Assembly (NCBI GenBank): GCA_022843175.1
Contig: JALHOE010000015.1
Span: 1-64,000, forward strand
Direction: 5' to 3'
DNA length: 64,000 nt
From: Deltaproteobacteria bacterium
Lineage (GTDB): Bacteria > Myxococcota_A > Polyangia > Polyangiales > JADJMO01
The translations under genes and the position numbers were made by a program. Below are positions 10,582-64,000 of this stretch, piece by piece. Numbering within the stretch: the first letter of the stretch is position 1; the number at the start of each line of letters is the position of its first letter. The notes below the pieces were generated by a model. It ran no database searches and was not told the origin of the DNA. It saw nothing but the letters and a program-made list of their open reading frames with translations.

Positions 10582-11514
10582 GTGCCGCGCGTGCTACCCG
10601 CCGAAGCCCCCGGGGCGATCGCCGAGGCGATCATGATCCTCCGCGCCGGCGGGCTCGTCGCTATCCCCACGGAGACCGTCTACGGCCTCGCCGCGCACGC
10701 GCTCGATCCGGCGGCCGTGGCGAAGATCTTCGCGGCCAAGGGGCGCCCGGCGACCAACCCCCTGATCGTCCACGTCGCCACGGTCGAGCAGGCGCGCGCG
10801 CTGTCCTCCGCGTGGCCGGCGCGCGCCGACGCGCTCGCCGCGGCGTTCTGGCCGGGCCCGGTGACGGTGGTGGTCCCGCGCGCCGCGCACGTCCCCGACG
10901 TGGTGACGGCCGGGGGCGACACCGTCGCGATCCGGATCCCGGCCCACCCGGTCGCGCTCGCGATCCTGCGCTCGGGCCTGCCGCTCGCGGCGCCGAGCGC
11001 CAACCGCTCCAACGCGATCTCGCCGACCACCGCGGCGCACGTCACGCTCGACGTCGAGCTGGTGATCGACGGCGGCCCCACCGCCGCCGGGATTGAGTCG
11101 ACCGTGGTCCACCTCGGCGAGGATCCGCCGCGCCTGCTCCGGCCCGGGGTGATCACGCCCGCGCAGCTCGAGGCCGTGCTCGGGCCGATCGCGCGCGGCG
11201 GCCAGCACGACGCGGTGCTCCCCTCGCCGGGGATGATGGAGCGGCACTACGCGCCGCGCGCGGTCCTCGAGGTGCGCGACGACGACGCCGCCCGCGTCGC
11301 CGAGCTCCGCGCCGCCGGCGTGAGCGTCGGGTGGATCGGGTTCGCGGGGGCCGACGTGAACCTCCCGCGCGACGCGCGCGCTTATGCATCACGTCTCTAT
11401 GCAGTCCTCCACGACCTCGACGCCGCCGGGGTCGAGCGGATCGTCGTCGCGACGCCCCCCGCGAGCGACGAGTGGCTCGGCGTCCGCGATCGGCTGACGC
11501 GCGCGTCGCGGTGA
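10582..11514 (+). CDS. tsaC: L-threonylcarbamoyladenylate synthase (Sua5/TsaC)
   Basis: The 310-residue enzyme makes threonylcarbamoyl-AMP from Thr, bicarbonate and ATP, the first step of the universal tRNA t6A37 modification. The N-terminal YrdC/TsaC domain (about 1-200) shows PTETVYGL, the KGRP loop and SANRS. The linker SPGMMERHYAP and the shorter C-terminal domain identify the Sua5 (long) form. The start is GTG at 10582, preceded by AAAGGAG. It is a single gene, divergent from the oxoamine synthase operon. Confidence 0.93.
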   Translation: MPRVLPAEAPGAIAEAIMILRAGGLVAIPTETVYGLAAHALDPAAVAKIFAAKGRPATNPLIVHVATVEQARALSSAWPARADALAAAFWPGPVTVVVPRAAHVPDVVTAGGDTVAIRIPAHPVALAILRSGLPLAAPSANRSNAISPTTAAHVTLDVELVIDGGPTAAGIESTVVHLGEDPPRLLRPGVITPAQLEAVLGPIARGGQHDAVLPSPGMMERHYAPRAVLEVRDDDAARVAELRAAGVSVGWIGFAGADVNLPRDARAYASRLYAVLHDLDAAGVERIVVATPPASDEWLGVRDRLTRASR

Positions 11515-11582
11515 CGACTATCTCGGTAGTGCCCTTGGCGCGCCGTTGAACGAAGCGGCATCGTCCGGGAACAGACCCGCAA

Positions 11583-13620: not shown

Positions 13621-14376
13621 CTACGGCTTCACGAATTTCAGCACGAAGCGATCGCTTGTTCCGCGCTTGTCGCCGGATTTCGTGGGAGAGGCGTTCCAGT
13701 CCCGCGCGTCCTCCGCGTTACGGAAGAAGCCCGCGTCGGCGACGAGCTTGAACCCCGCGGCGGTCACTTCGTCGCGGACGCTCTTCTCGTCGATGCGGTG
13801 TAACGTCTGCACGTCCTCGAGACCGCTGCCCTCGCGCGCCGAGTGGTCGATGACGCCGAACACACCGCCCGGCTTGAGCGCGCGGAACACGCCCGCGTTC
13901 ATCTTGGCGCGGTCGACCTTGAGCCACACCGTATCGTGGTAGGTGAACATCATCAGCACCACGTCGAGGTTCCTCGCCTCGTCGGGGAGCGGGTCGTCGA
14001 GCTCGCGATCGACGCGCACCACCTGCCGCATCACCTTCTTCTGGAGGCGGGCGCTCCACGCGGTCTCGGCGAACTTCTCGAGGATGAACTTGGGGTTCTG
14101 CGCGTAGACGAGGCCCTGCTCGCCGACCACGCGCGCGAGCAGCTCGGTCGTGTAGCCGGTGCCGGCGGTGAGCTCGGCGACGTGCTGCCCGCCGGAGATG
14201 CCGAAGAACCGGAGCACCTCGCCGGGCTTGCGTCCCTTGTCGAGCGCGCGATCGACCGGATCGCGCTCCTTGCTCGCGAGCACCGTGTCGATCGAGGGAG
14301 GTGGCGCGGCCGCGGGCTTGGGCGGCGGCGCGGCCGAGCAGGCAGAGAGCAGCGCGACGAACGCGAGGAGCCGCAT
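13621..14376 (-). CDS. Predicted exported SAM-methyltransferase-like lipoprotein
   Basis: The 251-residue protein begins MRLLAFVALLSAC, a lipoprotein signal with lipobox LSAC, and then has a Pro/Ala linker. From about residue 60 it has a Rossmann-type methyltransferase fold with motif I VAELTAGTGYTTELLA and later GGVFGVIDHSAREG, as in the COG4798 'predicted methyltransferase' group. Export of a SAM-dependent enzyme is odd because SAM is cytosolic, but signal-bearing members are common in this group. The stop/start overlap (TGATG) couples it to the crotonase gene. Confidence 0.78.
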   Translation of the reverse strand: MRLLAFVALLSACSAAPPPKPAAAPPPSIDTVLASKERDPVDRALDKGRKPGEVLRFFGISGGQHVAELTAGTGYTTELLARVVGEQGLVYAQNPKFILEKFAETAWSARLQKKVMRQVVRVDRELDDPLPDEARNLDVVLMMFTYHDTVWLKVDRAKMNAGVFRALKPGGVFGVIDHSAREGSGLEDVQTLHRIDEKSVRDEVTAAGFKLVADAGFFRNAEDARDWNASPTKSGDKRGTSDRFVLKFVKP

Positions 14377-15155
14377 CAAGCGCCCTTGAAGCTCGCCGGG
14401 CGCTTGTCGAGGAAGGCGGCCATACCCTCTTGCTGATCGGCGGTGCCGAACAGCATCGCGAACGCCTGCGCCTCGAGCTCGTTGGCCGCGGGGAGCGACG
14501 GATCGCCGCGGCGCATGACGACCTTCGCCTGCGCGATCGCCAACGGCCCCTTCTTGGCGATCTTGTCGGCGACCTTGCGCACGTGGGCCTGTAGCTCGGC
14601 CGCCGGCACCACCGCCTCGCAGAGGCCGATGCGGTGCGCCTCGGCGGCGTCGATGATGTCGCCGGTGTAGACGAGCTCGCGAGCCTTGCCGACCCCGACG
14701 CGTCGGGAGAGCCGCTGCGTGCCGCCGAAGCCGGGGATGACCCCGAGGTTGACCTCGGGCTGACCGAACTTCGCCTTGTCGCTCGCGTAGACGAGATCGC
14801 ACGCCATCGCGAGCTCGCAGCCGCCGCCGAGGGCGAAGCCGTTGACGGCCGCGAGGACGGGGAAGGGGAGCGACTCGATGAGGTCGCCCACGCGGTGGCC
14901 GAGATCGGCGAAGGCCTTGGCCTCGGCCGTGGTGAGCGTGCGCATCGAGGCGATGTCGGCGCCCGCCACGAACGCTTTGTCGCCGGCGCCGGTGACGATC
15001 GCGCAGCGCACGTCGGTCGCGGCGCGGAGCTCGGTGAAGGCGCGGTAGAGGTGCTCGAGCACCTCACGGTTGAGCGCGTTCAGCTTGTCGGGACGGTTGA
15101 CGGTGAGGAGCGCGACGGCGCCGTCGCGGCTGAGGAGGACCGGGGCGTCTGACAT
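14376..15155 (-). CDS. Enoyl-CoA hydratase/isomerase (crotonase family)
   Basis: At 259 residues this is a standard single-domain crotonase. It has the oxyanion-hole segment AFVAGADIASM, GFALGGGCELAMACD with the first catalytic Glu, and QPEVNLGVIPGFGGTQRL with the second, which fits a short-chain hydratase for beta-oxidation or a crotonyl-CoA type step. The exact CoA substrate cannot be assigned. It is first in a two-gene unit with the methyltransferase-like gene and divergent from fmdB. Confidence 0.88.
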   Translation of the reverse strand: MSDAPVLLSRDGAVALLTVNRPDKLNALNREVLEHLYRAFTELRAATDVRCAIVTGAGDKAFVAGADIASMRTLTTAEAKAFADLGHRVGDLIESLPFPVLAAVNGFALGGGCELAMACDLVYASDKAKFGQPEVNLGVIPGFGGTQRLSRRVGVGKARELVYTGDIIDAAEAHRIGLCEAVVPAAELQAHVRKVADKIAKKGPLAIAQAKVVMRRGDPSLPAANELEAQAFAMLFGTADQQEGMAAFLDKRPASFKGA

Positions 15156-15218
15156 GGGCGCGGATGGTACTGCCGTTGACCGGCTCTCGCGCGATGATTA
15201 CGAGCCCAGACGACACCC

Positions 15219-15569
15219 ATGCCGACTTACGAGTACGCCTGCCGGGCCTGCGGCCACACGTTCGAAGAGATCCAGAAGATCAGCGAGCCCGCGATCGATG
15301 TCTGCCCCAAGTGCGGGCAGCGCCAGGCCCAGCGCCTGATCTCGCAGGGCAACTTCATTCTCAAGGGTGGCGGCTGGTACACCACCGGCGGCTACGGCTC
15401 GTCGAGCAAGCCCAGCGGCGGCGGTGGCGACGACGGTGGAGGCTCGTCCTCCTCCTCCTCCTCCTCCCCCACCAAAACCGAGACGAAGACCGAGACGAAG
15501 ACCGACACCGGGTCGTCGTCGGGTTCCTCGGGCGGCGGCTCCACCGGCGGCACCAAGAGCGCCGCCTAG
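15219..15569 (+). CDS. FmdB-type zinc ribbon protein
   Basis: The 116-residue protein starts MPTYEYACRACGHTFE, the FmdB signature, with a Cys4 zinc ribbon from C8, C11, C29 and C32. Known family members are small putative regulators, described near formamidase or amidase genes. Here the domain is followed by a long Gly/Ser and Thr/Lys low-complexity tail, longer than usual. The function is not established. Confidence 0.85.
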   Translation: MPTYEYACRACGHTFEEIQKISEPAIDVCPKCGQRQAQRLISQGNFILKGGGWYTTGGYGSSSKPSGGGGDDGGGSSSSSSSSPTKTETKTETKTDTGSSSGSSGGGSTGGTKSAA

Positions 15570-52190: not shown

Positions 52191-52272
52191 GCGACGGTGG
52201 CGGAACTGGCATACGCACTGGGTTTAGGTTCCAGCGCCGAAAGGCATGCGGGTTCAACTCCCGCCCGTCGCA
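52191..52272 (+). tRNA. tRNA-Leu (anticodon UAG)
   Basis: 82-nt class II tRNA. The acceptor stem GCGACGG pairs with CCGTCGC, with A as discriminator. The anticodon stem CTGGG/TCCAG frames the loop TTTAGGT (anticodon TAG). A short variable arm (CGCC GAAA GGC) and a T arm CGGGT TCAACTC CCGCC follow. CCA is not encoded. The phage-like region begins directly after it. Confidence 0.93.
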
Positions 52273-52298
52273 CTCTGCACGAGAAAAACAAGGGTGAA

Positions 52299-52535
52299 GT
52301 GCACTCCGCCGAGGTGGCGGATTCTGCGATCGTAGAACGGTCCGCAGACACTTCGCAGACACTTCGCCCGGCCGGCTCGCCCGACGATGCGGTGTCGATC
52401 CTCCGACGGAAGGCCGCGGAGCTGGTCCTCGCCGGGCGCATCGACGCCGCGCGGAAGGTGCTCGAAGCGCTCGAGGCGATCACCCCGGCCGCCGAGGTCC
52501 TCGACCTCGCGCGCGAGCGGGAGCGTCGGCGCTAG
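52299..52535 (+). CDS. Small helical hypothetical protein
   Basis: 78 residues from GTG 52,299 (VHSAEVADSAIVERSADTSQ...), with AAGGGTGAA just before it. The C-terminal half is a helical repeat (AAELVLAGRIDAARKVLEALEAI) of TPR-like character. First frame after the tRNA. The call is uncertain, as the frame also runs through the tRNA gene. Confidence 0.4.
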   Translation: MHSAEVADSAIVERSADTSQTLRPAGSPDDAVSILRRKAAELVLAGRIDAARKVLEALEAITPAAEVLDLARERERRR

Positions 52536-52600
52536 GCTCCACACGTAGGAGCGCCTCGCCGGCTGGTACCCGACGAGGCGCGGAAGGACACGGTTGCAAC

Positions 52601-53524
52601 GTGGCCCCGAAGACGAACGGTACGCCGAAGAGGACGAAGAGCAAGGCGACGTCGCGCGAGCCTGCGGCGACGACGGTGGAGCAGATCGCCGCGCAGCTCT
52701 TGGCGAATGCGGAGCTCACGGTGGAGCAACTCTTTGCCGATGCGGAGGCCGAGGCGGCAGCGCTCCCACCTCCTCCACGTCCAGCCGGCCCCAGCGACGA
52801 CGAGTATGAGCGGGCCTGCAGAGTCATCTCTTCCGCGGTCCTCGCCGACCCATCGCGCCTCGTGGCCGCGACCAGCCACGTGCTGTCGCTCTGGCGACTC
52901 GGTCGACTCAGCGAGGACGAGATCCCCGTTGCGCGGATCCTTTTGGCTACTTGGTTCGCGTACGCGGACGACGACCGACGCTGGCTGAAGGAGATCGCGA
53001 CGAAGTCAAAGACGCTGCTCGAAGCGCACGCAGGTGAACATCGGCTCCGCATGTCGCCGCGCGCGCCGGCGACGGGGCCGAGCCTCAACCTGATCTCAGG
53101 GCGCGGCGGCGACCTTGTTCGTGACCGCGACGACGATCTCCGCGCGCTGCGCAGCTACGCGATCCGCGTGTTGGCCGACGACTGGCTGCGCGACAACTGG
53201 TCCGACGAGGCGAACGAGTCAATCGCCCGATCCGTTGCGACGTGGATCTCTACGACCGGATTCGCCATCGACGGCACCACGATCGCCAATCCGCGCGATC
53301 CGGCGTTTCGGCGCGCGTGTCGCGACGAGGTTGCCGGCGCGCGCAAGCACGCTCGCAATGACGAGGAGACGCGCTCGCGCGAGCGGATTGCTGAGGATGT
53401 CGTGCGCGCCGTGCTCCGGGCCGTGCTCCGAGCCGCGGGCCGGTCAACGGCGGAGGCGGCCGCGAAGGCGAAGAACGTGTTCGCGAATTTGAACAAGGAT
53501 AAGAAGCGGACCCGAGTCGGCTAA
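52601..53524 (+). CDS. Hypothetical protein of the element
   Basis: 307 residues from GTG 52,601. The N-terminus is Lys/Thr-rich (APKTNGTPKRTKSKATSREP), the rest is mainly alpha-helical with charged surfaces, ending in a basic KNVFANLNKDKKRTRVG segment. No domain was recognised. Codon use is slightly less GC-extreme than in the chromosomal genes. It precedes the block of small phage-like genes and could be a regulatory or cargo gene. Confidence 0.6.
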   Translation: MAPKTNGTPKRTKSKATSREPAATTVEQIAAQLLANAELTVEQLFADAEAEAAALPPPPRPAGPSDDEYERACRVISSAVLADPSRLVAATSHVLSLWRLGRLSEDEIPVARILLATWFAYADDDRRWLKEIATKSKTLLEAHAGEHRLRMSPRAPATGPSLNLISGRGGDLVRDRDDDLRALRSYAIRVLADDWLRDNWSDEANESIARSVATWISTTGFAIDGTTIANPRDPAFRRACRDEVAGARKHARNDEETRSRERIAEDVVRAVLRAVLRAAGRSTAEAAAKAKNVFANLNKDKKRTRVG

Positions 53525-53585
53525 CCGTTCGGAGATTGGTTAGCGCACTCAGCGAGTGCGCGGGTGACGACGTACACCAGTCGTC

Positions 53586-53780
53586 ATGTCACGACGTACC
53601 GAGACGCCGCCGCAGACGCGGCCGATGCGACTTCCCACGACCTCGCTCGATCGCGTGCGACAACTCGCCGTCGATCTGACCGTCGAGCGCGGACGACCGG
53701 TCCCCGAGTCAGAGGCGGCAGCGTTCGCGCTCGACCGCGGCCTCGACGCTCTCTTGCCGACCGCCAGGCCGATCCGCTGA
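53586..53780 (+). CDS. Small ribbon-helix-helix-like protein
   Basis: 64 residues: MSRRTETPPQTRPMRLPTTS, then LDRVRQLAVDLTVERGRPVPES and EAAAFALDRGLDAL. A short beta-prone start followed by two helices is the pattern of ribbon-helix-helix DNA-binding proteins; the match is by pattern only. Possible regulator of the element. Confidence 0.5.
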   Translation: MSRRTETPPQTRPMRLPTTSLDRVRQLAVDLTVERGRPVPESEAAAFALDRGLDALLPTARPIR

Positions 53781-53842
53781 AAGCGGCGCACCCGCGCGGC
53801 TGGCAGGCCTAACGCGGGTGCTCTGCACCGGAGCTCCATCCG

Positions 53843-54202
53843 ATGCGTACCCCCAAGATGACCGCGGCCTCCGAAGGTCGCAAGCACCGACCGCCGCGCG
53901 CCGAGCTCGTGCGCGCCGCCCTCGAGCAGCTCACCGAAGCGCTCGCTCCCGAGCAGTCCTCACCGGCGTGGGATTGGATCCGCTGGCCGGCGTGGGCCCG
54001 CTCACCGGAGCATGCGCGACGCCTCGGCGAACGCGAAGGCATCCGCCTCACGAAGATCGGCCGCGACCTCTACGGCCACCGCGCCGACCTCGATGCGCTC
54101 GCCGACAGGAACGCGATCGCCGCTGGTGCCGCGAACGATGGCGGCGACGACGAGATCGATCCCGAGGTCGCGGCCGCGTTCGCGTCGGTGGGCCGACGAT
54201 GA
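53843..54202 (+). CDS. Helix-turn-helix/excisionase-like protein
   Basis: 119 residues with a helical N-terminus and a WPAWARSPEHARRLGEREGI segment followed by RLTKIGRDLYGHRADLDALA, which resembles a small winged-helix or excisionase-type DNA-binding domain. The C-terminus is acidic. It overlaps the next gene by ATGA, starting a run of four coupled small genes. The function is a guess from shape. Confidence 0.5.
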   Translation: MRTPKMTAASEGRKHRPPRAELVRAALEQLTEALAPEQSSPAWDWIRWPAWARSPEHARRLGEREGIRLTKIGRDLYGHRADLDALADRNAIAAGAANDGGDDEIDPEVAAAFASVGRR

Positions 54203-54402
54203 GCCGCTCGACTTCCCCGCGCGGGCTCGCCGCGTACGCGCCGGACGCGTGTCCCACGATCGACTCGGCGCGACGCCGAGCGCGCGTTCGACGCCGGCAG
54301 CGAGAGATCGAGGACGCGCGCGAGCCGCGAGTCGTGGCCGTGCGCTACGTCGACGGCGCCGAGCCCGTGATCGTGCACGAGGGCGGGGAGCGCAGCCGAT
54401 GA
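54199..54402 (+). CDS. Small basic hypothetical protein
   Basis: 67 residues, Arg-rich in the middle (RRRARVRRRQREIEDAREPR), followed by VVAVRYVDGAEPVIVHEG, a strand pair. No family was recognised. Four-base overlaps at both ends (with the genes at 53,843 and 54,399) argue that it is translated. Confidence 0.55.
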   Translation: MSRSTSPRGLAAYAPDACPTIDSARRRARVRRRQREIEDAREPRVVAVRYVDGAEPVIVHEGGERSR

Positions 54403-54641
54403 GCGCGCAGAAGATCCGTTGCCGCTCGTGCGGCGAGCACGTCGAGGGCGAGCTCGCGCAGATCGATCACGCGCTGTCGGCCTCGTCGCACTCCACGGGC
54501 GAGATCCGCACCATCTACACCGCGGTCGGGCGCACGCTCCTCGACCGCCTCACCGCGGAGCTCGAGGTGCGTCGCCGATCGCTCGAGTCCATCGAGGCCG
54601 AGATCGCCCGCGTCGCGCGCCTCAGCGCGGAGGGCAAGTAG
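54399..54641 (+). CDS. Small protein with N-terminal Cys pair
   Basis: 80 residues. It starts MSAQKIRCRSCGEHVEGELA, a half zinc-ribbon (C-x2-C), and continues as one long helix (LLDRLTAELEVRRRSLESIE...), probably a coiled coil. Coupled to its neighbours. Unknown role within the phage-like block. Confidence 0.55.
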   Translation: MSAQKIRCRSCGEHVEGELAQIDHALSASSHSTGEIRTIYTAVGRTLLDRLTAELEVRRRSLESIEAEIARVARLSAEGK

Positions 54642-54827
54642 ATGGACCGCGACACGAGGGCGCCGACCATCGCGCAGATCCGACACCCGCGCGAGAGGGC
54701 CGAGCACGCCACGTCGCCGCGCGTCCGCGCGCTCCACGCTCGGATCGCCCGCGACCGGATCGCCGAGCTCCGTGCCCTGCTCGACGTTGAGGAGCGGGCC
54801 CTCGACGCGCTCGAAGGTGCCTCATGA
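54642..54827 (+). CDS. Small helical hypothetical protein
   Basis: 61 residues, starting directly after the preceding stop. Mostly one amphipathic helix (VRALHARIARDRIAELRALL, then DVEERALDALEGA). Its end overlaps the next gene's ATG. No family. Confidence 0.5.
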   Translation: MDRDTRAPTIAQIRHPRERAEHATSPRVRALHARIARDRIAELRALLDVEERALDALEGAS

Positions 54828-55420
54828 GCTGGTACGTGGTGCCCCCGGGCGCCGACGGCATGGTCATGGCGCACGCCACGCTCCCGGTCCGCTACCTCGT
54901 CGGCGGGCTCATCCGCGCGCGTGATCGGTATCGCGGCGTCGACGTTCTCGCCGAGGAGATCGCCACGTCGCTCGCCGAGGCGACGCGGATCGCGATCGGC
55001 CTCGTGCTGACGATCGACATGCAGGAGGACGCGAGGCGCGAGCTCGAGGCCCGCGAGCGCGATCGGCGTCGCGGCTACACGCGCGACCGCGTTGCCGATC
55101 GCGACGTGGTGCGCGAGCTCCGGCGCCGCCTCGACGATCCCGCGCGCGTCGTCCATGCCCTCGGGCTCGAGAAGGGGGCGCGTCGACAGCCGCGAGGCGT
55201 GACCGTGCTGTGCCCCTGGCACGACGAGCGCACGCCCTCGTGCTCCGTGCGCGTCGCCGACGACGGGACGATCGCGTGCCGGTGCCACGGCTGCGGCGCG
55301 ACCGCCGACGTCCTCGGCCTCGTCGCCGCGGTGCACGGGCTCGACCCTCGGCGCGAGTTCCGCCGCGTCCTCGAGACGGCGGCCGCGATCGCCGGCGTCA
55401 CCCTCGCGAGGGCGTCTTGA
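54824..55420 (+). CDS. CHC2 zinc-finger (primase-type) protein
   Basis: 198 residues. The N-terminal part (about 1-110) is helical and unassigned. The C-terminal part has a DnaG-like CHC2 zinc finger: C130-P-W-H133 (VLCPWHDERTPSCSVR) and later C154-x2-C157 (IACRCHGCGATADVLGLV). No TOPRIM domain follows, so it would be a finger-only protein acting with another replication factor. It overlaps the RepA-like ATPase gene by four bases, which supports a DNA replication role for the pair. Confidence 0.75.
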   Translation: MSWYVVPPGADGMVMAHATLPVRYLVGGLIRARDRYRGVDVLAEEIATSLAEATRIAIGLVLTIDMQEDARRELEARERDRRRGYTRDRVADRDVVRELRRRLDDPARVVHALGLEKGARRQPRGVTVLCPWHDERTPSCSVRVADDGTIACRCHGCGATADVLGLVAAVHGLDPRREFRRVLETAAAIAGVTLARAS

Positions 55421-56571
55421 GCACGCCCTACGACGACGCGCTCGCGCAGGCCGAGCGAGGTGGCGACGCGGAGGGCGAACCCATGGACGCGGCGCACGTC
55501 GCCGCCCTGTTCGCCGACAACGGCAGCGCCGCGCCGACCTCGGCGAAGATCATCCGTCCCAACTTCGCGTTGTTGAGCGCGGTGCCGCCGTTCGCGCTCG
55601 TCGGGCCGGAGCAGGGGCTGTGGGGGCCGCTCGAGCCGCTGGCGTACGCGGTCGCGGGCATCATCCCGGCGTCGTCGCTCACCTTGCTCTCGGGCTACTC
55701 GAGCTCGCTCAAGTCGTGGCTCGCGCTCCACATGGGCTTCGCGAAGGGCGCCGGGCTCCCGTGGCTTGGTCATGAGCCGTTCGCGGCCGAGCGCGGGCCC
55801 GTCTCCTACTTCGATCGCGAGGCCGGCCTGCACGAGCTGCGTCGGCGCCTGCACGCGATCCGGCGGCCGCTCGGCATCATGGACGACCCGCTGCTCGACG
55901 TCTGCTCGTTCCCCGTCGGCGGCAACATCTTCTCCCGCGAGTTCATGGCGCGGCTTCGCGAGCTCGCGCACCAGCGCGACCTCATCGTGCTCGATACGCT
56001 CGTCGCGTTCGCGGCCGGCGCCGACGAGAACAGCGCACAGATGGCGGAAGGGCTCGGCGCCTGCTCCGAGTCGATCGCCGGGACCAAGTGCGCGATGGTC
56101 GTCGTCGCGCACGAGAAGAAGAAGGGCGCGAACGGCGACGTCGACCCGCGCGAGCGAGTCCGCGGCTCGTCGGCGATCTTCGGCGCCGTCGACGTCGTGC
56201 TCTCGTGTCAGCGGTCCGCACCGCGCGAGCCGGTCGAGGTCGTCCAGACGAAGGCGCGCAACGGGCGCGAGGCCGAGCCCTTCGCCGTCTCGATGCTCGA
56301 CGCGCCCGACGGGGGAGTCACGTTCGCCGTCGCCGGCAAGACCGAGCCGCGCGAGCTGACCCCCACGGAGCGCCTCGACCTCGAGGTGGACCGCGTGGTC
56401 GACGTCGTGCGCGACAACCCGAGGTGCTCCGGCGCCGTCGTCCAAGAGGCGCTCAGGATCCGCAAGGCGTCGGTGGGCGTCCTCGTCGCCCGCGCGATCG
56501 AACAGGGGCGCATCCGCAACCTGGGCAACGAGAAGGCGCCGGCCCTCGTCGCCCTCGAGGGCACGCGATGA
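55417..56571 (+). CDS. RepA-like AAA ATPase (hexameric helicase type)
   Basis: 384 residues from the TTG in a TTGA overlap. Walker A is SGYSSSLKS (G93 to K99-S100) and Walker B is LIVLDTL (D193). An AHEKKK sensor-like segment and an RGSSAIFGAVDVV stretch follow, as in RepA/DnaB-related ATPases of plasmids and phages (AAA_25 type). The C-terminal 60 residues look like a winged helix. It probably unwinds or loads at the element's origin; ten direct repeats start 64 bp after its stop. Confidence 0.78.
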   Translation: MSTPYDDALAQAERGGDAEGEPMDAAHVAALFADNGSAAPTSAKIIRPNFALLSAVPPFALVGPEQGLWGPLEPLAYAVAGIIPASSLTLLSGYSSSLKSWLALHMGFAKGAGLPWLGHEPFAAERGPVSYFDREAGLHELRRRLHAIRRPLGIMDDPLLDVCSFPVGGNIFSREFMARLRELAHQRDLIVLDTLVAFAAGADENSAQMAEGLGACSESIAGTKCAMVVVAHEKKKGANGDVDPRERVRGSSAIFGAVDVVLSCQRSAPREPVEVVQTKARNGREAEPFAVSMLDAPDGGVTFAVAGKTEPRELTPTERLDLEVDRVVDVVRDNPRCSGAVVQEALRIRKASVGVLVARAIEQGRIRNLGNEKAPALVALEGTR

Positions 56572-56600
56572 CCCCGACGCTGCCCTCGACCTCCCGCCCT

Positions 56601-56753
56601 GTGGTTCCGGTTCCCCCTCATAGAGAGGGGGGAACGGGAACCACGGGTGACGGGAACCACGGGAACCACGGCGGGAACCACTCGGGAACCACCGGGAACC
56701 ACTCGGGAACCACACCCCCCCGGGAACCACTCGGGAACCACCTCGGGAACCAC
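56601..56753 (+). repeat. Long hairpin followed by ten CGGGAACCAC direct repeats
   Basis: 56,601-56,644 can fold into a stem of about 18 bp (GTGGTTCCGG... against ...CGGGAACCAC) with a loop of about 7 nt. Exact copies of CGGGAACCAC start at 56,635, 56,651, 56,660, 56,672, 56,683, 56,693, 56,704, 56,721, 56,732 and 56,744, mostly 9-12 bp apart. This resembles an iteron cluster. A reading frame from ATG 56,568 passes through it (Gly-Asn-His repeats), but it looks like a shadow. Confidence 0.85.
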
Positions 56754-56841
56754 GCTCGGCGCGCCCCGCTGACGCCTCCCCGGGACCACGACGACCACGC
56801 GGGCGACGGCCGCCCGCTCCGCACGACCGAACAGGAGACCC

Positions 56842-57024
56842 ATGGAGCAGGAGCAGGACACCAAGCCCGGGAAGCAGTGCACGGAGTGCCGCAACGTGGT
56901 GCGCCCGCCGCTCCACTCGCTGTGCATGCGTTGCTGCGCGAACGCGGTTCGCGGGAACGAGAAGGGGCTCGAGGCCCTGGCACTGCGGCCCGACGGCTCG
57001 ACGCGGCCCCGCCGCCGCGTCTGA
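56842..57024 (+). CDS. Small zinc-ribbon protein
   Basis: 60 residues with two Cys pairs, C-T-E-C (KQCTECRNVV) and C-M-R-C-C (LCMRCCANAV), a minimal zinc-binding module. Basic C-terminus (RPRRRV). Common style in phage genomes; role unknown. An AACAGGAGA ribosome binding site precedes its ATG. Confidence 0.6.
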   Translation: MEQEQDTKPGKQCTECRNVVRPPLHSLCMRCCANAVRGNEKGLEALALRPDGSTRPRRRV

Positions 57025-57295
57025 GCTCGAGCCCGTCGGCGCGGTCGCTCGCCCTCGCATCCGCCGCACCGTCGCCCCGCTCGACGCGCGTGGAGCCGAG
57101 ACAGGTCGACGGGCACCGACGCATCCACGGGGCGCTGAGGGGCGCGCAGGGGCGTCGCGCTCCTGCGGCACTGGTCGCCGCTCAATGGCGGATGGTCGAT
57201 GCCTTCAATGCATGTAGTCGGCGGGCCGCCGAGCCGAGAGGCGGGCGGGCAAGGACGGCGAAGCGCATCCGGTCTTTGACGGATCGGTCAGGCAC

Positions 57296-57322
57296 AAGTG
57301 TGTGTAGCCGGTATACACACTT
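57296..57322. promoter_or_regulatory. Palindrome upstream of gene 57,415, likely operator
   Basis: AAGTGTGT and ACACACTT are perfect arms, extending to 11 bp with one mismatch around GCCGG. Part of a 390-bp gene-free stretch (57,025-57,414) that also has CCGGAA-TCCGCG-TTCCGG at 57,377-57,394, two inverted repeats expected of a regulated promoter. Confidence 0.45.
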
Positions 57323-57414
57323 CGCTTCTGCGGCAATCGAGGGCGCTCTGCACGCTGGTTGCGAAGTTTTTGATCCCGGAATCCGCGTTCCGGATCCCAC
57401 TTTGGAGGCGTTCC

Positions 57415-58059
57415 ATGCGTGAACCGCTGAAAGAGCGCGTCATCGCCGAGGCGAAGCGTTTGCGTGATGCGGGCGCGACGTGGCCCGAGGTCACCGAACG
57501 GGTGTCGCGGACCGCCAACCGACCGCGCGGGAAGCCCTTCGACGAGTCGACGGTGCGCAAGATGGTTCGGGACGCGGACGCCGCGCCGCTCGCTCCGCGC
57601 TTCCCCACCCCCACACGCCAGCTTCGGGCACCCGTTGGGATGCTCGCCGTCGCCTTCGACGACGCGTGGAGGCAGCGCCTCGACGAATTGGAAGCTGCCC
57701 GCGAGGACCTCGAGACCGCGGCGGAGCTCCGCGCCAACGATCTCGAGATCTACAAGCACGAGCACCCCGAGTTCGCCGCCTGGCTCGCCTACCCATCGGT
57801 CAACGGCGACGTCGTCGACGCGCTGGTTGAGATGGGGAACGGCGCGCCGCTGTGGCTGCTGCACACGCCGGAGGCGATCGCGTCCCTCGCGTCGCTCGTC
57901 ACTGACACGCCCTACGTGGGCGACGAGCGGGGGCTGCGCCGTGCTCAACGTCGCGATCGGGCGCGAGCGATCTCGCTTCTCGAGCGCGCCGTCGAGGTGC
58001 TGCGTGCAAGGCCCGTCGATTGGACGCCGCGATCCGAAGCTCGCGAAGGGAGCGATTGA
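57415..58059 (+). CDS. HTH-containing phage-type protein
   Basis: 214 residues from ATG 57,415; a strong GGAGG six bases upstream decides this start. The N-terminus (ERVIAEAKRLRDAGATWPEV, then TERVSRTANRPRGKPFDESTVRKMVRDAD) looks like the HTH found in recombinase-associated and phage regulatory proteins. The rest is helical and unassigned. The two inverted repeats before the gene could be its own operators. Function uncertain. Confidence 0.62.
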   Translation: MREPLKERVIAEAKRLRDAGATWPEVTERVSRTANRPRGKPFDESTVRKMVRDADAAPLAPRFPTPTRQLRAPVGMLAVAFDDAWRQRLDELEAAREDLETAAELRANDLEIYKHEHPEFAAWLAYPSVNGDVVDALVEMGNGAPLWLLHTPEAIASLASLVTDTPYVGDERGLRRAQRRDRARAISLLERAVEVLRARPVDWTPRSEAREGSD

Positions 58060-58060
58060 G

Positions 58061-58462
58061 ATGCCGCCGACCGAATCACTGTCGGAAACGGAGCAGAATG
58101 CCCCCGCAAACGACCTGGAAAACCAGGCGTTTCCCGCACGACGCACGAGCCGAGCCCATACCGAATTGCAGGGGTCCGCGTACCAGATCGTCTCGAGCGG
58201 CACGCGGCTGGTCGAGACCGCGGTGGTGCGTTTCGAAGACGACGCCCGGCGGGGCCTTGTGCTTCAGATCCGCGAGAAGCGAACCGTCCGGGCCGGCCGA
58301 CCGGCCATCGCGATCGACCTTCCGGCGACCGCCATCGACGCGGCGATCGAGGCGCTCTGCAGAGCGCGCGAAGCCGTCGTCGCCGAGCTCGGCCCGGGGG
58401 CAACACAGCGCCGCAACGCGCCGATGCACGGCACGTGGATCGGGAAGCGAGGTGGACGGTGA
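58061..58462 (+). CDS. Hypothetical phage-type protein
   Basis: 133 residues, starting two bases after the previous stop. The middle part is a beta-strand-rich fold (AYQIVSSGTRLVETAVVRFED, LVLQIREKRTV), followed by a helix rich in Ala (AIDAAIEALCRAREAVVAEL). No family. Overlaps the next gene through GTGA. Confidence 0.55.
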   Translation: MPPTESLSETEQNAPANDLENQAFPARRTSRAHTELQGSAYQIVSSGTRLVETAVVRFEDDARRGLVLQIREKRTVRAGRPAIAIDLPATAIDAAIEALCRAREAVVAELGPGATQRRNAPMHGTWIGKRGGR

Positions 58463-58707
58463 TCTGGCTCGACCGGACGGCAACCCCGCTCGACGAGCTG
58501 CGCCTCGAGTTCTCGGTCGCGTCCTCGGCCGCCTCCGAGGCGGAGAGACTGGCGACCGAGAGCGGCTCGCCCGAATCGATCGCTGCACACGCGATCGCCG
58601 CGGCGCGTGCACACGAGCTCGCCGGGCGCGTCGTCGCACTCGAGGAGCGAATTCGTGACCTGTTGAGCGATTGCGCTTCAGCGATCGCATTGAAAAAGGA
58701 GAACTGA
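58459..58707 (+). CDS. Small helical phage-type protein
   Basis: 82 residues from the GTG in the overlap (VIWLDRTATPLDELRLEFSV). Predicted all-helical, Ala-rich with heptad-like spacing (AHELAGRVVALEERIRDLL). No family. AAGGAGAAC at its 3' end is the ribosome binding site for the next gene. Confidence 0.5.
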   Translation: MIWLDRTATPLDELRLEFSVASSAASEAERLATESGSPESIAAHAIAAARAHELAGRVVALEERIRDLLSDCASAIALKKEN

Positions 58708-58709
58708 CC

Positions 58710-59594
58710 ATGACGAAGACGAAGACGACCACGCACAAGGTGAAGCAGGCCGAGACGCAGCTCGCGGAAGCAACCGCGGCCCTCGAGGCGCACGCGACTG
58801 TCGCAAGCGATCTCCACAGGCAGCACAGCGAAGCCGGGGCCATCGTCGCCGGTGCGAAGCCGGCAGCACTCGCAGCCACGGCGCCGACGGACGCCGCGGT
58901 GAAGCACTGGAACGAGCGCCGCGCGGCCGCCGACTGGTTGCTCGCGAAGGTGAAGGAAGCCGACGCCGAGACGGCGCGCCTGCAGGCTATCGTCGACGAG
59001 AAGCGCGCGACCCTCGAGCACGAGATCGAGGCTGTGCGGCTCGCGCAGATCCGCGCCGCGAACGAGGCAAGGCTCGGCGAGCTCCTCCCCGCGATCGCGC
59101 GCTCGCGAGAGCAGATGGCCGCGAAGCACGTGGCGAGCTTCCTCGCGGTCGAGAGGCAGATGTCAGCCGCCGAGGCGGAGCTGCAAAGCGACATCGCCAG
59201 CGATGCCGCGCTGCGTGCCGAAGCGACTCGCGTCGCAGCGCACCTCGGCGTCGAGATCGCTCTGCCGCCGGAGACGGTCCGGGCTCACGTGTTGGCGCTC
59301 GTCGCGGTCGCCGAAGACCGAGCGCCGGTGCACGCGTTCGTCCAGCTGCCGCGCGCGCCGGAGCAGCCGCACAAGCGGCTCGAGCACCTCTGTTCGCTGC
59401 TCTCCGAGCAGCACACTCCCTTCTTCGAAAAAGAATGGCCCTTCGCCGATCGCATCGGCGCGGTCTTGGCTTTCGATGGGACGTATCGCGCGCGCGTGTC
59501 GGCTCTCAAGGCTGCGCGCTCGGCCGAAACCAGGCGCATCGCCGCTGTTGGAGATGCGCCGTTCCGCGGCGGGAAGTTCGCTTTCGGGCGGTGA
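58710..59594 (+). CDS. Coiled-coil protein
   Basis: 294 residues from ATG 58,710, chosen for the AAGGAGAACTGACC leader. Residues about 10-175 are nearly continuous coiled coil (VKQAETQLAEATAALEAHAT, AETARLQAIVDEKRATLEHE). The last 100 residues form a smaller domain. Directly precedes the Mu-type protease, where scaffold-like proteins sometimes sit, but a scaffold normally follows or is nested in the protease gene. Role unknown. Confidence 0.6.
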   Translation: MTKTKTTTHKVKQAETQLAEATAALEAHATVASDLHRQHSEAGAIVAGAKPAALAATAPTDAAVKHWNERRAAADWLLAKVKEADAETARLQAIVDEKRATLEHEIEAVRLAQIRAANEARLGELLPAIARSREQMAAKHVASFLAVERQMSAAEAELQSDIASDAALRAEATRVAAHLGVEIALPPETVRAHVLALVAVAEDRAPVHAFVQLPRAPEQPHKRLEHLCSLLSEQHTPFFEKEWPFADRIGAVLAFDGTYRARVSALKAARSAETRRIAAVGDAPFRGGKFAFGR

Positions 59595-60451
59595 TGACCA
59601 TGAACACCAACACGAACAAGGGTCAGATCGTCCGCCTCGGCGCCGCCGTCGCGTTCAGCGGCAACGGCCCGCCCACGGAGTTCCGTCTGTTCAAGGCGGG
59701 CCCGAACGACACCGCTAAGGGCGTGTTCCTCTTCGACGCGCGCGCCGCCGCTCTCGTGATGGCTGCGGCGAACAGGTGGGGTGTCGACCTCATGATCGAC
59801 CTCGAGCACCGGTCGCTCGACTCCGGTGTCAACCACGACCCCGACGCGCGCGGCTGGTTCCGGCTCGCCCTGCGCAATGGCGAGCTGTGGGCCGTCGACG
59901 TCCGTTGGACCCCTGACGGTGCGCGTCGTCTGAGCGATCGCACGCAGCGCTACATCAGCCCCGCCTTCGCGACCGACGACGCCGGGCGAGTCGTCGAGAT
60001 CGTCAACGTCGCGCTCGTCGCGATGCCCGCCACGCACAACACGCCCGCGCTCATCGCGGCGCACAGGAGACACACGACCATGCCGACCAAAGATCAGTTC
60101 ATCATCCGCCTCGCCGCCTCGAAGCGGAGGATCACTCAGCTCGCCGAGGACGGCGCCGACACCGGCGATGGGAAATTCGCAGCGGTCCAGGAAGCAGCGA
60201 ATAAGATCGAGAAAGCCCTCGCCGAGCTCGACGCCGCGAGAACCGATCCGGTCGTCGCCGCGGGCGTCACGGAAGCCTGCCAGGCGCTCGAGGCCGCGAT
60301 CGATGCCCTCTACAGCGTCGAGTTGCGGACGTTCACGACACAGGTCGGGCGCGTGACGCTCACGAAGAACCAGATGCAGGAGTGCGCACGCGCGGGCGTT
60401 GACCCCGCGGCCTACGCGGAGAGAACCGCGCGCCAATACTGGGTGAGGTGA
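59594..60451 (+). CDS. Mu-type phage protease (gpI-like)
   Basis: 285 residues from ATG 59,594; a GTG three bases earlier and an ATG six bases later are alternatives. The N-terminal 150 residues match Mu I protein-like proteases: LMIDLEHRSLDSG, DARGWFRLALRNGELWAVDV, WTPDGARRLSDRTQRYISPAF and VALVAMPATHN. In Mu this protease matures the procapsid and its C-terminus gives the scaffold. The helical tail here (about 165-285) fits a scaffold-like region. A stem without T-run follows its stop. Confidence 0.82.
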   Translation: MTMNTNTNKGQIVRLGAAVAFSGNGPPTEFRLFKAGPNDTAKGVFLFDARAAALVMAAANRWGVDLMIDLEHRSLDSGVNHDPDARGWFRLALRNGELWAVDVRWTPDGARRLSDRTQRYISPAFATDDAGRVVEIVNVALVAMPATHNTPALIAAHRRHTTMPTKDQFIIRLAASKRRITQLAEDGADTGDGKFAAVQEAANKIEKALAELDAARTDPVVAAGVTEACQALEAAIDALYSVELRTFTTQVGRVTLTKNQMQECARAGVDPAAYAERTARQYWVR

Positions 60452-60466
60452 CGGCGTCGCCGGCGA

Positions 60467-60508
60467 GCCGAGGGCGCGTTCGCAACGTCGCGAGCGGTCG
60501 CCCTCGGC
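60467..60508 (+). terminator. Strong stem after the protease gene
   Basis: GCCGAGGGCG and CGCCCTCGGC are perfect 10-bp arms with a 22-nt loop, 16 bp after the stop. No T-run follows, so it may end transcription only with help or protect the 3' end. The rest of the spacer to 60,685 holds nothing else recognised apart from an AGGAG ribosome binding site. Confidence 0.45.
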
Positions 60509-60685
60509 GGCGGCCACGGAAGTCAGACGCAACACAGCGCATGTTCAATCACAGATGATCTGCGAAGTGCGCGCCATATACCGCAGTAAGCGCCGCGTTT
60601 CGCCGCTGAAGCGCTACGGAAACCATGTTTGATGTGACGCGCTATCGCCACTGAATCCGACACCGAACGCAGGAGAAGCAGGACC

Positions 60686-61648
60686 ATGGCCGCGGTAAAT
60701 TGGGCAGCAACAAGCACGAGCCTCACGACGGCGATCGGCGGCGCGACCGGCACCGATCTTACGCTCCTCACCGACGTCCGCACGCGGCTCACCAGGGCCG
60801 GGACGCAATACGATGCTCTGTGGGCGGCTGTCTCCGGCGTCGACGCAGCGAAGACCACCTTCGACGCCGACTTCTCGGCCGCGCTGACCGCGTGGTGGAC
60901 TGCGTACGAGGCCGCGCACACCGACGCTGACCGTGCGGCGCGCTACGGCGAGTCGCTCGAGGCGGCGGCATCGGGCGCCTACCTCGCGCGCGTCGGCGAC
61001 GTGGCGATCGTCCTCGCGCCGGCGAGCGCCATCTCGTGGAGCGCGGACGAGACTCCGATCGCGAGCGCGTACAGGCATCTACTCGCCACGGCGACGCCAG
61101 CGCTGCGCGTGGTCGCGAAGGAGGCCGGCACGCCCGGCAACCGGATCGAGGTCAGGATCGACGACGCGACCTCGGGCGCGACAAGGTACAAGATCCGCGT
61201 CCGGCTCGGCTCCACGTACGAAGAGGCGTACGACGAGATCAATCCCGCGACGCCGACCGCCGCGAACGCGGCGAGCAACGGCGGCCACCTCCTGGCCGAG
61301 TGCAAGCAGCTGGGGACGACGAGGCCGGACTCGACGGGCGCGTGGCTCGCTCTCACCGGCGGCACCGGCGGATCGATCGCGGCCGCGGCGTTGCGACTGC
61401 AGCGGGCCATGCAACTGCCTGCGGCGATCGCGAAGGTCCCAGCGATGCAGCCCTATGCCGCGGCGCTCACCGCCGCCGCGAGCGGCATGCCGTCGCGTGC
61501 GGCCTACAACGACGGCGGCGCGTTCGCGGGTCGTGGCCGCATCGGTCAGCGCCTGATCGGCGCCCCGACGAGCGTCCTCGATCTCGAGGAGCAGGTCCTC
61601 ACCATCATCGCTGAAGCGACGCGACTCCTCGCGGTCGCCAGCTACTGA
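60686..61648 (+). CDS. Phage structural protein candidate
   Basis: 320 residues, Ala/Thr-rich, preceded by AGGAG. The middle part (VVAKEAGTPGNRIEVRIDDA, then KIRVRLGSTYEEAYDEINPA) resembles the beta domain of contractile tail sheath proteins (PGxxGN...V...E.), only by pattern. Yet the protein is shorter than a full sheath. It follows the protease, where head and tail genes are expected. A head protein is the other option. Confidence 0.5.
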   Translation: MAAVNWAATSTSLTTAIGGATGTDLTLLTDVRTRLTRAGTQYDALWAAVSGVDAAKTTFDADFSAALTAWWTAYEAAHTDADRAARYGESLEAAASGAYLARVGDVAIVLAPASAISWSADETPIASAYRHLLATATPALRVVAKEAGTPGNRIEVRIDDATSGATRYKIRVRLGSTYEEAYDEINPATPTAANAASNGGHLLAECKQLGTTRPDSTGAWLALTGGTGGSIAAAALRLQRAMQLPAAIAKVPAMQPYAAALTAAASGMPSRAAYNDGGAFAGRGRIGQRLIGAPTSVLDLEEQVLTIIAEATRLLAVASY

Positions 61649-61740
61649 ACGGGGCTACGAATGATCGGCGCGCACCCCACCGACGACGCCGCAGTAGCCC
61701 TCGCCCTCCACGTTCACGTAGCTCGTCGGCGGCAGCATCT

Positions 61741-61910
61741 AGGGTCGAGCCGCCGCCCGTATTGATGCTCCTCATATCGGCGGCGAACCCACGCAGACGC
61801 GCCGGGCCGCCCGCGAGCTCGAGGCCCGCGCCGTCGAGGCGCACGACCGGGGCGATCTCCGGCTCGCCCTCGAGCTCATGACCGAAGCCGCCGAGGCGCG
61901 CGCAGCATGA
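61741..61910 (+). CDS. Possible small helical protein, start unclear
   Basis: The frame encodes RRAARELEARAVEAHDRGDL and LALELMTEAAEARAA before a stop that overlaps the next ATG. Its helical, Ala/Glu-rich make-up is like its neighbours. No normal start codon is present between the upstream stop and this part, so it may be truncated or start at a rare codon. Confidence 0.3.
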
Positions 61911-62077
61911 CCGCCGCGGCTGTCGAGCGCTGGTCGCGCACCGTCGCGCGGCTCCTCACGGAGCTGCTCCCCGGGGCCTCCCGACCGCGGTTCTACGCCG
62001 CCGCGCGTGCCGTGCTCGCGAGGGTCGGCGGGATGCTGGACGAGGCCGAGCGGGCCGAGAGAGGGCGCGCAGCATGA
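61907..62077 (+). CDS. Small helical hypothetical protein
   Basis: 56 residues (MTAAAVERWSRTVARLLTEL, then LPGASRPRFYAAARAVLARV). Four-base overlaps on both sides suggest real translation in a coupled set. No family. Confidence 0.45.
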   Translation: MTAAAVERWSRTVARLLTELLPGASRPRFYAAARAVLARVGGMLDEAERAERGRAA

Positions 62078-62484
62078 GCACGCCCGACCTCGACGCCACG
62101 CTCGCGGCCCTCGGCGACGACGAGCGGCGGACCCTCGCCTACCTCGCGGGGCGCCTGCTCCTCGGCCAGCGCACGTACGGGGCGATCGATCTCGCGACCG
62201 ACCCGCGCGACTTCACCCGCGAGCGCGGCGAGGAGATCTCCGACTTGCTCGTCTACACCGCGTTCGCCGCGCTCCGCGCCGAGGTCGTGCGAGCGGCCAC
62301 GAGCGCGCTGGTGCTCACCGTCGCCGAGGACGAGGACGGGCACCGCGTCACCCGCATCGGCGTGCCCGACGTGTGGAGGCGCTCCCGTCGTCGTGCGCTC
62401 CGTGCGGCCGTCGAGGGCGCGCTCGAGGACGTGGTCGACGCGCTCGAGCGGGGCGAGGTCGTGCGGGTTGATGTGTCGCGATGA
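62074..62484 (+). CDS. Hypothetical phage protein, MazG-like motif
   Basis: 136 residues. A segment (RTYGAIDLATDPRDFTRERG, then EEISDLLVYTAFAAL) has the acidic EExxD helix spacing seen in MazG-like/phage nucleotide pyrophosphohydrolases, a weak pattern. The C-terminus is a charged helix. Last plus-strand gene of the block, facing the minus-strand genes. Confidence 0.5.
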   Translation: MSTPDLDATLAALGDDERRTLAYLAGRLLLGQRTYGAIDLATDPRDFTRERGEEISDLLVYTAFAALRAEVVRAATSALVLTVAEDEDGHRVTRIGVPDVWRRSRRRALRAAVEGALEDVVDALERGEVVRVDVSR

Positions 62485-62507
62485 CACGCGAGCGGAACGC
62501 CCACTGC

Positions 62508-63314
62508 TCAGTCCAGCAGGCGAGAGTCGATTCGGATGCACCATCGGCCTTTGTCGGCCCCCTCCGCGTAGGTATCGAAGTGCACGCCGAGAACCGCATC
62601 GAGGGGTACGACGCGGCCCTGTGTCCTCAAGATATCGATCCCGCCCAAGACGAGCGCGTTGCGCAGATCGTCCAAGCTCTCGAGCGTGTGGACGCCACCG
62701 GAGAAGCGCACCGCGTTGCTCGGAAGGAATGTGACGTGCACCTTCGCCTTCTCGGGGACTTGCCGCAGCATCGAGATCGTTCGTCGCAGGGAAGGGATCA
62801 TCAGCATCGCGGCTTGCTCCGGGTTCAACCAGATCGAGTCCTCACCCACACGCATCGGAAACAGGTACGCATCGACGTTCTTCCTATGGTCGCCGTCGTC
62901 GCATTCCGTTTGCTTCACGCGGACGCCGGTAGCCTGTCCGACGGTCGGATAGACGTTGAGCGCGACCACGTGAGTCCCATCGATCTCGATCGGTCGCGGC
63001 GCGACGATGGGCTGGGGCCGCAGGCGTTCGTTGACGACCGCGTGGAGCGCGTCGCAGAGCGCCGCCGCAGCGTGGGCGTCCTTCCCCTCGTACTTCTCGA
63101 GGCGGTGGTCCTTCTCGGTCGCGCCGAAGACGATCGTTCCTCCCGACGCGTTCGCGAAGGCCGCCACGTCCTTCGCGAGTTCGAGAGGCGCAGCGGTCGG
63201 ATCGATGTTGTGGTGCCAGGCCTTGAATTCGAGCACCTGCCCCTCGATGCCGTCAGGCGCGCCAGGTCGCGGGAGATCGCCACACGTGAGCCGCGGAATG
63301 AAGTGGACGGTCAT
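62508..63314 (-). CDS. AlbA_2/Schlafen-type DNA-binding domain protein
   Basis: 268 residues. The N-terminal domain (about 20-120) has the AlbA_2 pattern: EGQVLEFKAW, ELAKDVAAFANASGGTIVFGATE, and later VVALNVYPT. Such proteins occur as regulators, RNA/DNA-binding enzymes and in phage-defence or accessory islands. The C-terminal part is unassigned. It is one of three minus-strand genes and could be cargo of the element. Confidence 0.7.
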   Translation of the reverse strand: MTVHFIPRLTCGDLPRPGAPDGIEGQVLEFKAWHHNIDPTAAPLELAKDVAAFANASGGTIVFGATEKDHRLEKYEGKDAHAAAALCDALHAVVNERLRPQPIVAPRPIEIDGTHVVALNVYPTVGQATGVRVKQTECDDGDHRKNVDAYLFPMRVGEDSIWLNPEQAAMLMIPSLRRTISMLRQVPEKAKVHVTFLPSNAVRFSGGVHTLESLDDLRNALVLGGIDILRTQGRVVPLDAVLGVHFDTYAEGADKGRWCIRIDSRLLD

Positions 63315-63317
63315 GGT

Positions 63318-63638
63318 TCAGTCGATGACCCTCGCCCCTCGCGCGCTGTCGAGCGTGACGAGCAGCGAATGTGTGAGCGCCTCGGGCGCGGGCGAACCGT
63401 CCGGCCCCTCGCACTTCTGCCAGCTCGGCCCCCACGCGATGGATCCGACGTGCAGGTAGCGATCGGGCGACTCGGGCTCACCGACGGGGCGGTCAGGGTT
63501 GAGCCGGTAGATGCGATGCCATGTGAGCCCGTCGGGACGAACCTCGACGACGAGCCACCGCTTCTCGTTCTCGTGGTCAAACGCGCGCATGCTCTCCATG
63601 GCATCGAGGGTACCCGCGGCCGAAGCCATGAACATCAC
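63318..63638 (-). CDS. Hypothetical protein
   Basis: Up to 106 residues from the GTG at 63,638; ATG 63,635 or ATG 63,599 (MESMRAFDHENEKRWLVVEV) are alternatives and no ribosome binding site decides. The fold is beta-rich with several Trp (LTWHRIYRLN, IAWGPSWQKCEG). No family. It lies three bases before the AlbA_2 gene, so the two are probably one operon. Confidence 0.55.
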   Translation of the reverse strand: MMFMASAAGTLDAMESMRAFDHENEKRWLVVEVRPDGLTWHRIYRLNPDRPVGEPESPDRYLHVGSIAWGPSWQKCEGPDGSPAPEALTHSLLVTLDSARGARVID

Positions 63639-63728
63639 CCCGGAGGGGTGATTGACACGCGAGCTCCCTACGCGCTCGCCGGCTCGATGAGCAGCGCGAG
63701 CGCCTCGTCGACGGGAAGATCCATTGAT

Positions 63729-64000
63729 TCAGGTGATCGGACTGACCTTCGAGAGGTAGTCGATGCACACGTGCCAGCGCTCGTCGAGTCGATAGACGAG
63801 CCGAATCCCGTCGAGCGGAATCACGATCGGCGGAGTCGCTCGATCGGTCGGGTCCACGCCCAAGAACCGAGCGTAGTTTGCAAACTCGTTCGTCTCGACC
63901 AAGCGCATCGCGGTGCCGGCCGGCCGGTCTGGATGGGGGTCAGGCTCGAAGTGCTGTCGGTGCACCTGCACGGTGGCCTTTGGGTCGATCTGTCGAAGCA
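63729..64000 (-). CDS. Hypothetical protein, cut by the window edge
   Basis: The frame is open to the right edge; a GTG at 63,971 would give 80 residues, but the start may lie outside. Sequence: RLVETNEFANYARFLGVDPT, then PPIVIPLDGIRLVYRLDERW. No family was recognised. Same strand as the AlbA_2 pair. The 90 bp between it and the next gene hold only an 18-codon frame. Confidence 0.5.
   Translation of the reverse strand, partial: LRQIDPKATVQVHRQHFEPDPHPDRPAGTAMRLVETNEFANYARFLGVDPTDRATPPIVIPLDGIRLVYRLDERWHVCIDYLSKVSPIT

Follow-up and report, generated by a model that had tools for sequence, protein, structure and literature searches.

The 64,000-nucleotide stretch analysed here (the window) corresponds to positions 1 to 64,000 of contig JALHOE010000015.1 (C15) in assembly GCA_022843175.1, from a Deltaproteobacteria bacterium of the order Polyangiales, phylum Myxococcota, and its last part holds a tRNA-Leu(TAG) gene followed by a 16.24 kb integrative element whose integrase gene is the subject of this report (Table 1). 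The right end of the element lies beyond the window, at C15:68512, and coordinates preceded by C15 continue the numbering of the window (C15:1-64000); genomes, contigs and loci are otherwise denoted by G, C and L numbers. The tRNA, identified with ARAGORN, is intact and forms the left end of the element. A preliminary description of the window had taken this tRNA for the left boundary of a phage-like element and pointed to the right for a repeat of the tRNA 3' end and for an integrase, and both were found there. A 17-mer from the tRNA 3' end occurs twice in the 9.75 Mb assembly (470 contigs), at 52249 and at C15:68487, each copy falling within a 52-nt direct repeat (one mismatch, 98%), and a tyrosine integrase gene runs into the second copy of that repeat. 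The two attachment (att) sites, attL and attR, are 16,238 bp apart. When the left flank was joined in silico to the right att copy, tRNA-Leu was obtained again, as expected if integration restores the tRNA 3' end, which was also how its intactness had been explained in the earlier description. With an intact tRNA at one end, a displaced 3' fragment at the other and an integrase on board, the locus fits a tRNA-targeted integrative element.

The integrase frame has no stop ahead of att; within the tRNA fragment it encodes LGSSAERHAGSTPARRT, after which it enters the chromosome. At the opposite end of the element, directly behind attL, a short open frame lies in register with int across att. In the circular form computed from both ends, int is a single frame of 592 codons, with attP between the catalytic domain and this C-terminal tail; in the integrated form, the 86-amino-acid tail is swapped for a 71-residue end encoded by the chromosome. 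The central and catalytic domains (residues 131-413) remain together after integration. The int frame thus spans attP, a layout that we regard as practically certain. At E ≤ 0.1 the integrase matched PF00589 and PF22022 in Pfam and not PF16795 (Phage_integr_3), and a comparison of the catalytic part with solved structures, made by sequence, gave no match. The tail has single weak Pfam matches only (E 0.014-0.09), and its predicted structure consists of a low-confidence linker followed by a helical hairpin (helices 36-52 and 56-85; predicted local distance difference test, pLDDT, 71-90 by block). As an explanation of the whole locus, a phage-like element of 16.24 kb very probably split its own integrase gene on entering tRNA-Leu(TAG).

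Table 1. Features of the integrative element at tRNA-Leu(TAG), in window numbering, continued beyond position 64,000 as C15.
Feature	Position	Strand	Evidence and remarks
tRNA-Leu(TAG)	52191..52273	+	Integration target, regenerated by the element; ARAGORN; recovered in the joined empty site
attL core	52223..52274	+	52 nt, from the anticodon loop to one base beyond the tRNA 3' end; direct repeat D4
Severed integrase C-terminal tail	52275..52535	+	86 codons plus stop; same frame as int across att
307-aa protein	52601..53524	+	No Pfam or PHROGs match
119-aa protein	53843..54202	+	Common to both G001 elements, 54-56% identity
CHC2 (DnaG-type) zinc-finger protein, primase-like	54824..55420	+	PF01807 4.6e-8; PHROG primases
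AAA_25 ATPase, helicase-like	55417..56571	+	PF13481 3.2e-24; PHROG primase/helicase families
Mu-like I protein, head maturation protease	59594..60451	+	PF10123 1.7e-25; phrog_328 4.5e-28; start read from the sequence
Possible tail-sheath relative	60686..61648	+	PF17481 0.0025, weak, under the Pfam cut-off
Schlafen AlbA_2 domain protein	62508..63314	-	PF04326 6e-12
Second Schlafen AlbA_2 protein	63729..64000, 5' part past the window to C15:64538	-	PF04326 2.4e-13
Tyrosine integrase int	C15:66995-68728	+	PF00589 4.6e-11; PF22022 2.8e-6; phrog_1 4.7e-29
attR	C15:68461-68512	+	Right of the window, at the end of int

The catalytic part of int found matches in 55 of 183 genomes of the order at E ≤ 1e-40; flanks were fetched for part of these matches, giving 97 integrase loci, or 84 after removal of redundancy. 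A repeat shared by the int 3' region and upstream DNA was present at 15 integrase loci, twelve of which were att-like; the other three were dropped, L092 for a CRISPR-like (clustered regularly interspaced short palindromic repeats) array and L126 and L130 for repeats of only 23 and 31 nt at 91 and 87%. The twelve single-contig elements span 7.5-16.2 kb, within a search reach of 18 kb that is biased against long elements. Their targets are tRNA-Leu with the anticodons TAG (one), CAG (two), CAA (three) and TAA (one), tRNA-Lys (two), and the tRNAs for Phe, Arg and Pro, eight anticodons altogether, with the tRNA read in sense in six elements and in antisense in six. The shared att stretch is the tRNA 5' half in L114 and L140, and nearly the whole tRNA in L122. 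In eleven of the twelve, and in one further element lying on two contigs, int continues in frame across att into the other end of the element; the tails of those eleven are 82-123 codons long, and ten of them (not L118) close with a motif that by eye resembles VVdL..eRaRR. In the twelfth element, L122, unresolved bases break the frame, and its tail was found by a profile not built from it, as was the tail of L136. A general contig profile search with the integrase yielded two loci (C181 and C20), both in G001, the sole same-genus genome, and a search of IMG/VR with an integrase alignment yielded one distant relative. Two side observations concern other integrase loci of the order. At L092 (G002:C84), positions 6688-9152 in reverse orientation hold the long CRISPR-like array, with 36-nt repeats and differing spacers, which begins right beside the tRNA-Leu(TAG) into which the integrase reads. 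At L093 (G004:C323) and L097 (G174:C1), the integrase genes run in sense into a complete tRNA (Lys and Leu-TAA, respectively), perhaps through integration at the tRNA 5' half.

Homology among the tails was assessed with held-out profiles on a set comprising the eleven in-frame tails and the G001 tail: in 11 of 12 cases, the in-frame tail scored above both other frames and all 100 shuffles. For the tail in the window, the leave-one-out profile gave 13.3 bits, against -1.9 and -2.0 for the other frames. With the tail profile, the 183 genomes of the order yielded 109 listed matches at E ≤ 1e-5, at most 36 candidates being scored per genome, and all 13 genomes with a match among 377 from across the phylum belong to the same order, a result given without the share of the 377 that lies outside it. 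Of the 84 non-redundant integrases, 56 have a tRNA T-arm no more than 900 nt beyond the catalytic end, compared with 13 of 625 control windows; in 50 of these 56, the T-arm falls inside the int frame. A T-arm also occurs in the 450 nt before 17 of 30 tails with loci (a full tRNA in seven), compared with 1 of 60 control windows, and before 11 of the 22 tails that had not been used for profile building. Tail pairs at ≥55% amino acid identity (251 pairs, 35 distinct tails) had fewer non-synonymous than synonymous differences (pN<pS) in every case, although picking pairs by protein identity favours this outcome; in the +1-frame control, pN<pS held for 1 of 23 equal-length pairs. Truncated relics in the sister genomes G104 and G105 (one genus) hold the int end, an antisense tRNA and the tail in one frame. 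The G001 integrase enters the same tRNA-Leu in another frame, and the frame behind the G001 tRNA shifts likewise, the ends of that element lying on different contigs and their linkage being assumed. Judged by the tail profile, the split-integrase layout is probably widespread in the order.

Several results weigh against this interpretation. The G117 tail (L080) failed the held-out test, scoring -0.4 bits and falling below one wrong frame, and tail profile A3 misses two known tails, that of G117 and that of G121:C225 (L133). No T-arm was found for 28 of the 84 integrases, two of which (L080 and L114) have an att copy that is cut short or falls in the 5' half of the tRNA, and 13 of the 30 tails have none in reach. 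None of the 30 tails shares an open reading frame (ORF) with an integrase domain, and a third locus beside the two relics (L194 in G105) has the int end and the tail in different frames. A free circular copy carrying int in one piece was not observed. With int as query, 4 of 50,697 phage records and no plasmid record matched, and a search among phages with one tail gave no match, the tails not having been searched among plasmids. Separately, G104:C156 was considered as a circular episome carrying an unsplit gene, and was called a relic on account of contig ends that do not overlap and a truncated integrase. A second tail is present in the genome under study (G000:C76:14273-14413, L176), with no tRNA found on the stretch read; it shares no convincing att with the C9 integrase of the same genome, and its integrase partner was not found.

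The chromosomal side of the locus was compared with the four other genomes of the bacterial family (G001-G004). Upstream of tRNA-Leu lies what we take, from reading the sequence, to be an aconitase gene, and G001 has this frame at 86% identity next to the same tRNA. The right flank of the element (a 1.24 kb piece) was not found behind tRNA-Leu in any of the four, its best match being 70% over ~380 nt on a different contig of G003. The tRNA-Leu locus carries the tail of a related element in G001, and an integrase remnant with a second att copy ~2 kb further on in G004; three orphan att copies are present in G002, and in G003 tRNA-Leu alone was found, with no second att copy. A situation in which the same genes follow tRNA-Leu in all relatives without an att repeat, named beforehand as the pattern that would contradict an element boundary, was not seen in these genomes. 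At G001:C20 (L036/L077), positions 6377-9210, two integrase genes face one another across a single att copy, as if two elements stood side by side at a tRNA-Leu hotspot. To the right of the element in the genome under study, paired repeats of 69-79 nt, 851 bp apart (L003:17942-19018), flank a minus-strand ORF, presumably a REP-associated transposase.

Twenty of the 25 called genes of the element were scanned against Pfam and PHROGs, the unscanned five encoding 56-90 amino acids. Beyond the primase-like and helicase-like proteins, the Mu-like protease and the possible sheath relative, no terminase, portal or capsid match was obtained among these 20. The description as phage-like is borne out by gene content, but no head, portal or terminase genes were recognised, and the element is, by its predicted genes, phage-like and not a complete phage. 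The short overlapping genes described behind the tRNA are confirmed from 53843 on, where five of six successive junctions are 4-nt overlaps (ATGA four times, TTGA once), the last of the six leading into a frame of uncertain gene status. A structure model of the sheath-like protein was discarded (mean pLDDT 43), and defence-system profiles found no match among 10 element proteins. The two Schlafen AlbA_2 genes lie near each other on the minus strand, and a 29-nt GGGAACCAC repeat occurs in four imperfect copies at 56665-56754. When the genes of the element were compared with the G001 pieces by tblastn (valid for 24 of 25 genes), matches other than int comprised the 119-aa protein in both pieces, an 80-aa protein and a weak sheath-like match. 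The cargo of the G001:C181 relative includes a terminase-like protein, a replication initiator and a topoisomerase-like protein (nine proteins scanned); this relative (L078) measures 14.9 kb and occupies tRNA-Leu(CAG), its terminase- and topoisomerase-like genes lying within 9906-11780 and 14215-15261. A DUF927 primase/helicase was found in the G117:C24 relative (three proteins scanned). The cargo therefore differs among the three elements, which points to a shared integrase module with variable cargo. The length and the incomplete phage gene complement of the element would be no more than consistent with a phage satellite, such as phage-inducible chromosomal islands (PICI) or P4-like elements.

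The nearest known parallel is phage Mx8, in which attP lies inside int, integration replaces 112 residues by 13, and the altered Int is described as less active or changed in specificity (PMC6070905, PMC4383910, PMC4701971). The Mx8 Int (AF396866) and the integrase studied here are alike in having attP within the coding sequence and in exchanging the C-terminal end while keeping the catalytic part, and the Mx8 host, Myxococcus, belongs to the same phylum. The two integrases are nonetheless distant (26% over 205 amino acids, 1e-4), their tails are unrelated (2.1 bits for the tail profile against Mx8 Int), and Mx8 is a complete phage of 49.5 kb. The suicidal integrases of archaeal SSV1, pTN3 and pT26-2 likewise carry the recombination site inside the integrase gene, which is split on integration; in the SSV type, however, it is an N-terminal piece that becomes separated from the catalytic portion, whereas here just the C-terminal tail is lost, and PF16795, the domain named for the archaeal suicidal integrases, is not among the Pfam matches. 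Streptococcus integrative and conjugative elements in rumA are similar in that attR lies inside the integrase gene and the integrase encoded by the excised element differs in length and C-terminus, but they use a serine integrase and a protein-coding target. In the integration-dependent immunity of phages BPs, Brujita and Giles, attP lies in a regulatory gene and integration edits the end of the protein; the edited gene is that of the repressor and not the integrase. The best phage match of int belongs to virus Rctr16k (KX853514, a partial record of 16.7 kb), with 43% identity in the integrase and 40% in the Mu-I-like protease; its integrase is annotated with 401 amino acids, and the tail profile finds no tail in the record. 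The Islander authors mention integrases extending across attP as known and name Mx8 and SSV, whereas a 2021 review describes the disruption by integrases of their own gene as exclusive to archaea; bacterial integrases with att in their own gene have been reported in very few elements, with Mx8 given as the tyrosine-integrase example. No report of a split-integrase family in Polyangiales was found among the titles and abstracts listed, most subscription papers lying outside the library searched. The principle is therefore known from Mx8, and what is new is a bacterial family with a conserved tail of its own and many tRNA targets.

The simplest alternative would be an ordinary tRNA-borne island, in which both the read-through of int and the open frame behind the tRNA are noise of DNA with 70% G+C. 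Open frames are indeed long in this DNA, and other frames behind att sometimes exceed the int frame (for example 156, 172 or 300 codons), yet the in-frame continuations, unlike those of the other frames, are homologous to one another (11 of 12), the 109 profile matches within the order are enriched behind tRNA sequence, the tails are conserved at the codon level, and the element in the window and that of G001 pass through one tRNA in different frames that each fit their own int; for the family these findings already refute this account, and we consider it highly improbable. Equally improbable is a separate small gene at the far end of the element that was never fused to Int: the tail stands physically apart in the integrated elements examined, but its frame agrees with int across att in the 11 scorable single-contig elements at different tRNAs, and in the relics a single frame runs through int end, att and tail.

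Given a split gene, the main functional rival is a suicide variant, whereby the tail-less Int would be inactive and the element trapped unless a relative supplied full-length Int. Archaeal SSV-type integrases behave in this way, genomes of the order often contain several relatives, and in G001 two integrases face one att. Unlike in SSV, however, the whole catalytic domain survives integration here, and Mx8 Int whose end has been altered is described as reduced in activity but not inactive, which leaves the suicide variant unlikely, if well worth considering. As to the nature of the element, a decayed prophage instead of a satellite-like or small mobile element would fit the isolated Mu-like protease and sheath-like genes and the lack of terminase, portal and capsid matches in the scanned genes. 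Against decay, int, the att sites and the replication-type genes appear undamaged, and the twelve elements of the family measure 7.5-16.2 kb, though the search reach disfavours long ones; we hold a decayed prophage to be doubtful, somewhat less so than the suicide variant.

Under the split-gene explanation, the element's own tyrosine integrase would insert it into tRNA-Leu(TAG), and insertion would cut int, so that the catalytic part stays at attR with a chromosome-encoded end and the tail is stranded behind the tRNA. The tail is conserved even though it is cut off in integrated copies, and in the free form it is therefore highly likely to work as part of Int. It would be made and used solely in the circular state, where full-length Int may integrate efficiently; after integration, the tail-less Int may be weaker or changed, thus stabilising the insert, and excision would rebuild the full int gene. 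That loss of the tail lowers or redirects Int activity, as in Mx8, is by that analogy slightly favoured. A further, tentative proposal, to which we give rather less than even weight, is that the Polyangiales tail is a built-in directionality module: the tailed Int made from the circle would integrate, and insertion would remove the tail and lock the reaction.

With a conserved C-terminal module severed on insertion, this family opens the one-way nature of integration to direct tests. The tail profile offers a way of marking where elements end when a genome is fragmented, and the layout implies that the chromosome encodes the C-termini annotated for these integrases. If the tail does act as a directionality module, its loss would take the place of the separate directionality factor that usually serves this purpose, and any tRNA-derived att that preserves the frame could stand between the catalytic part and the tail; such exchangeability of att would explain how the family switched among many tRNAs in both orientations. 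The Polyangiales elements would then represent a family-scale bacterial counterpart of the gene-splitting integrases that have been described as exclusively archaeal.

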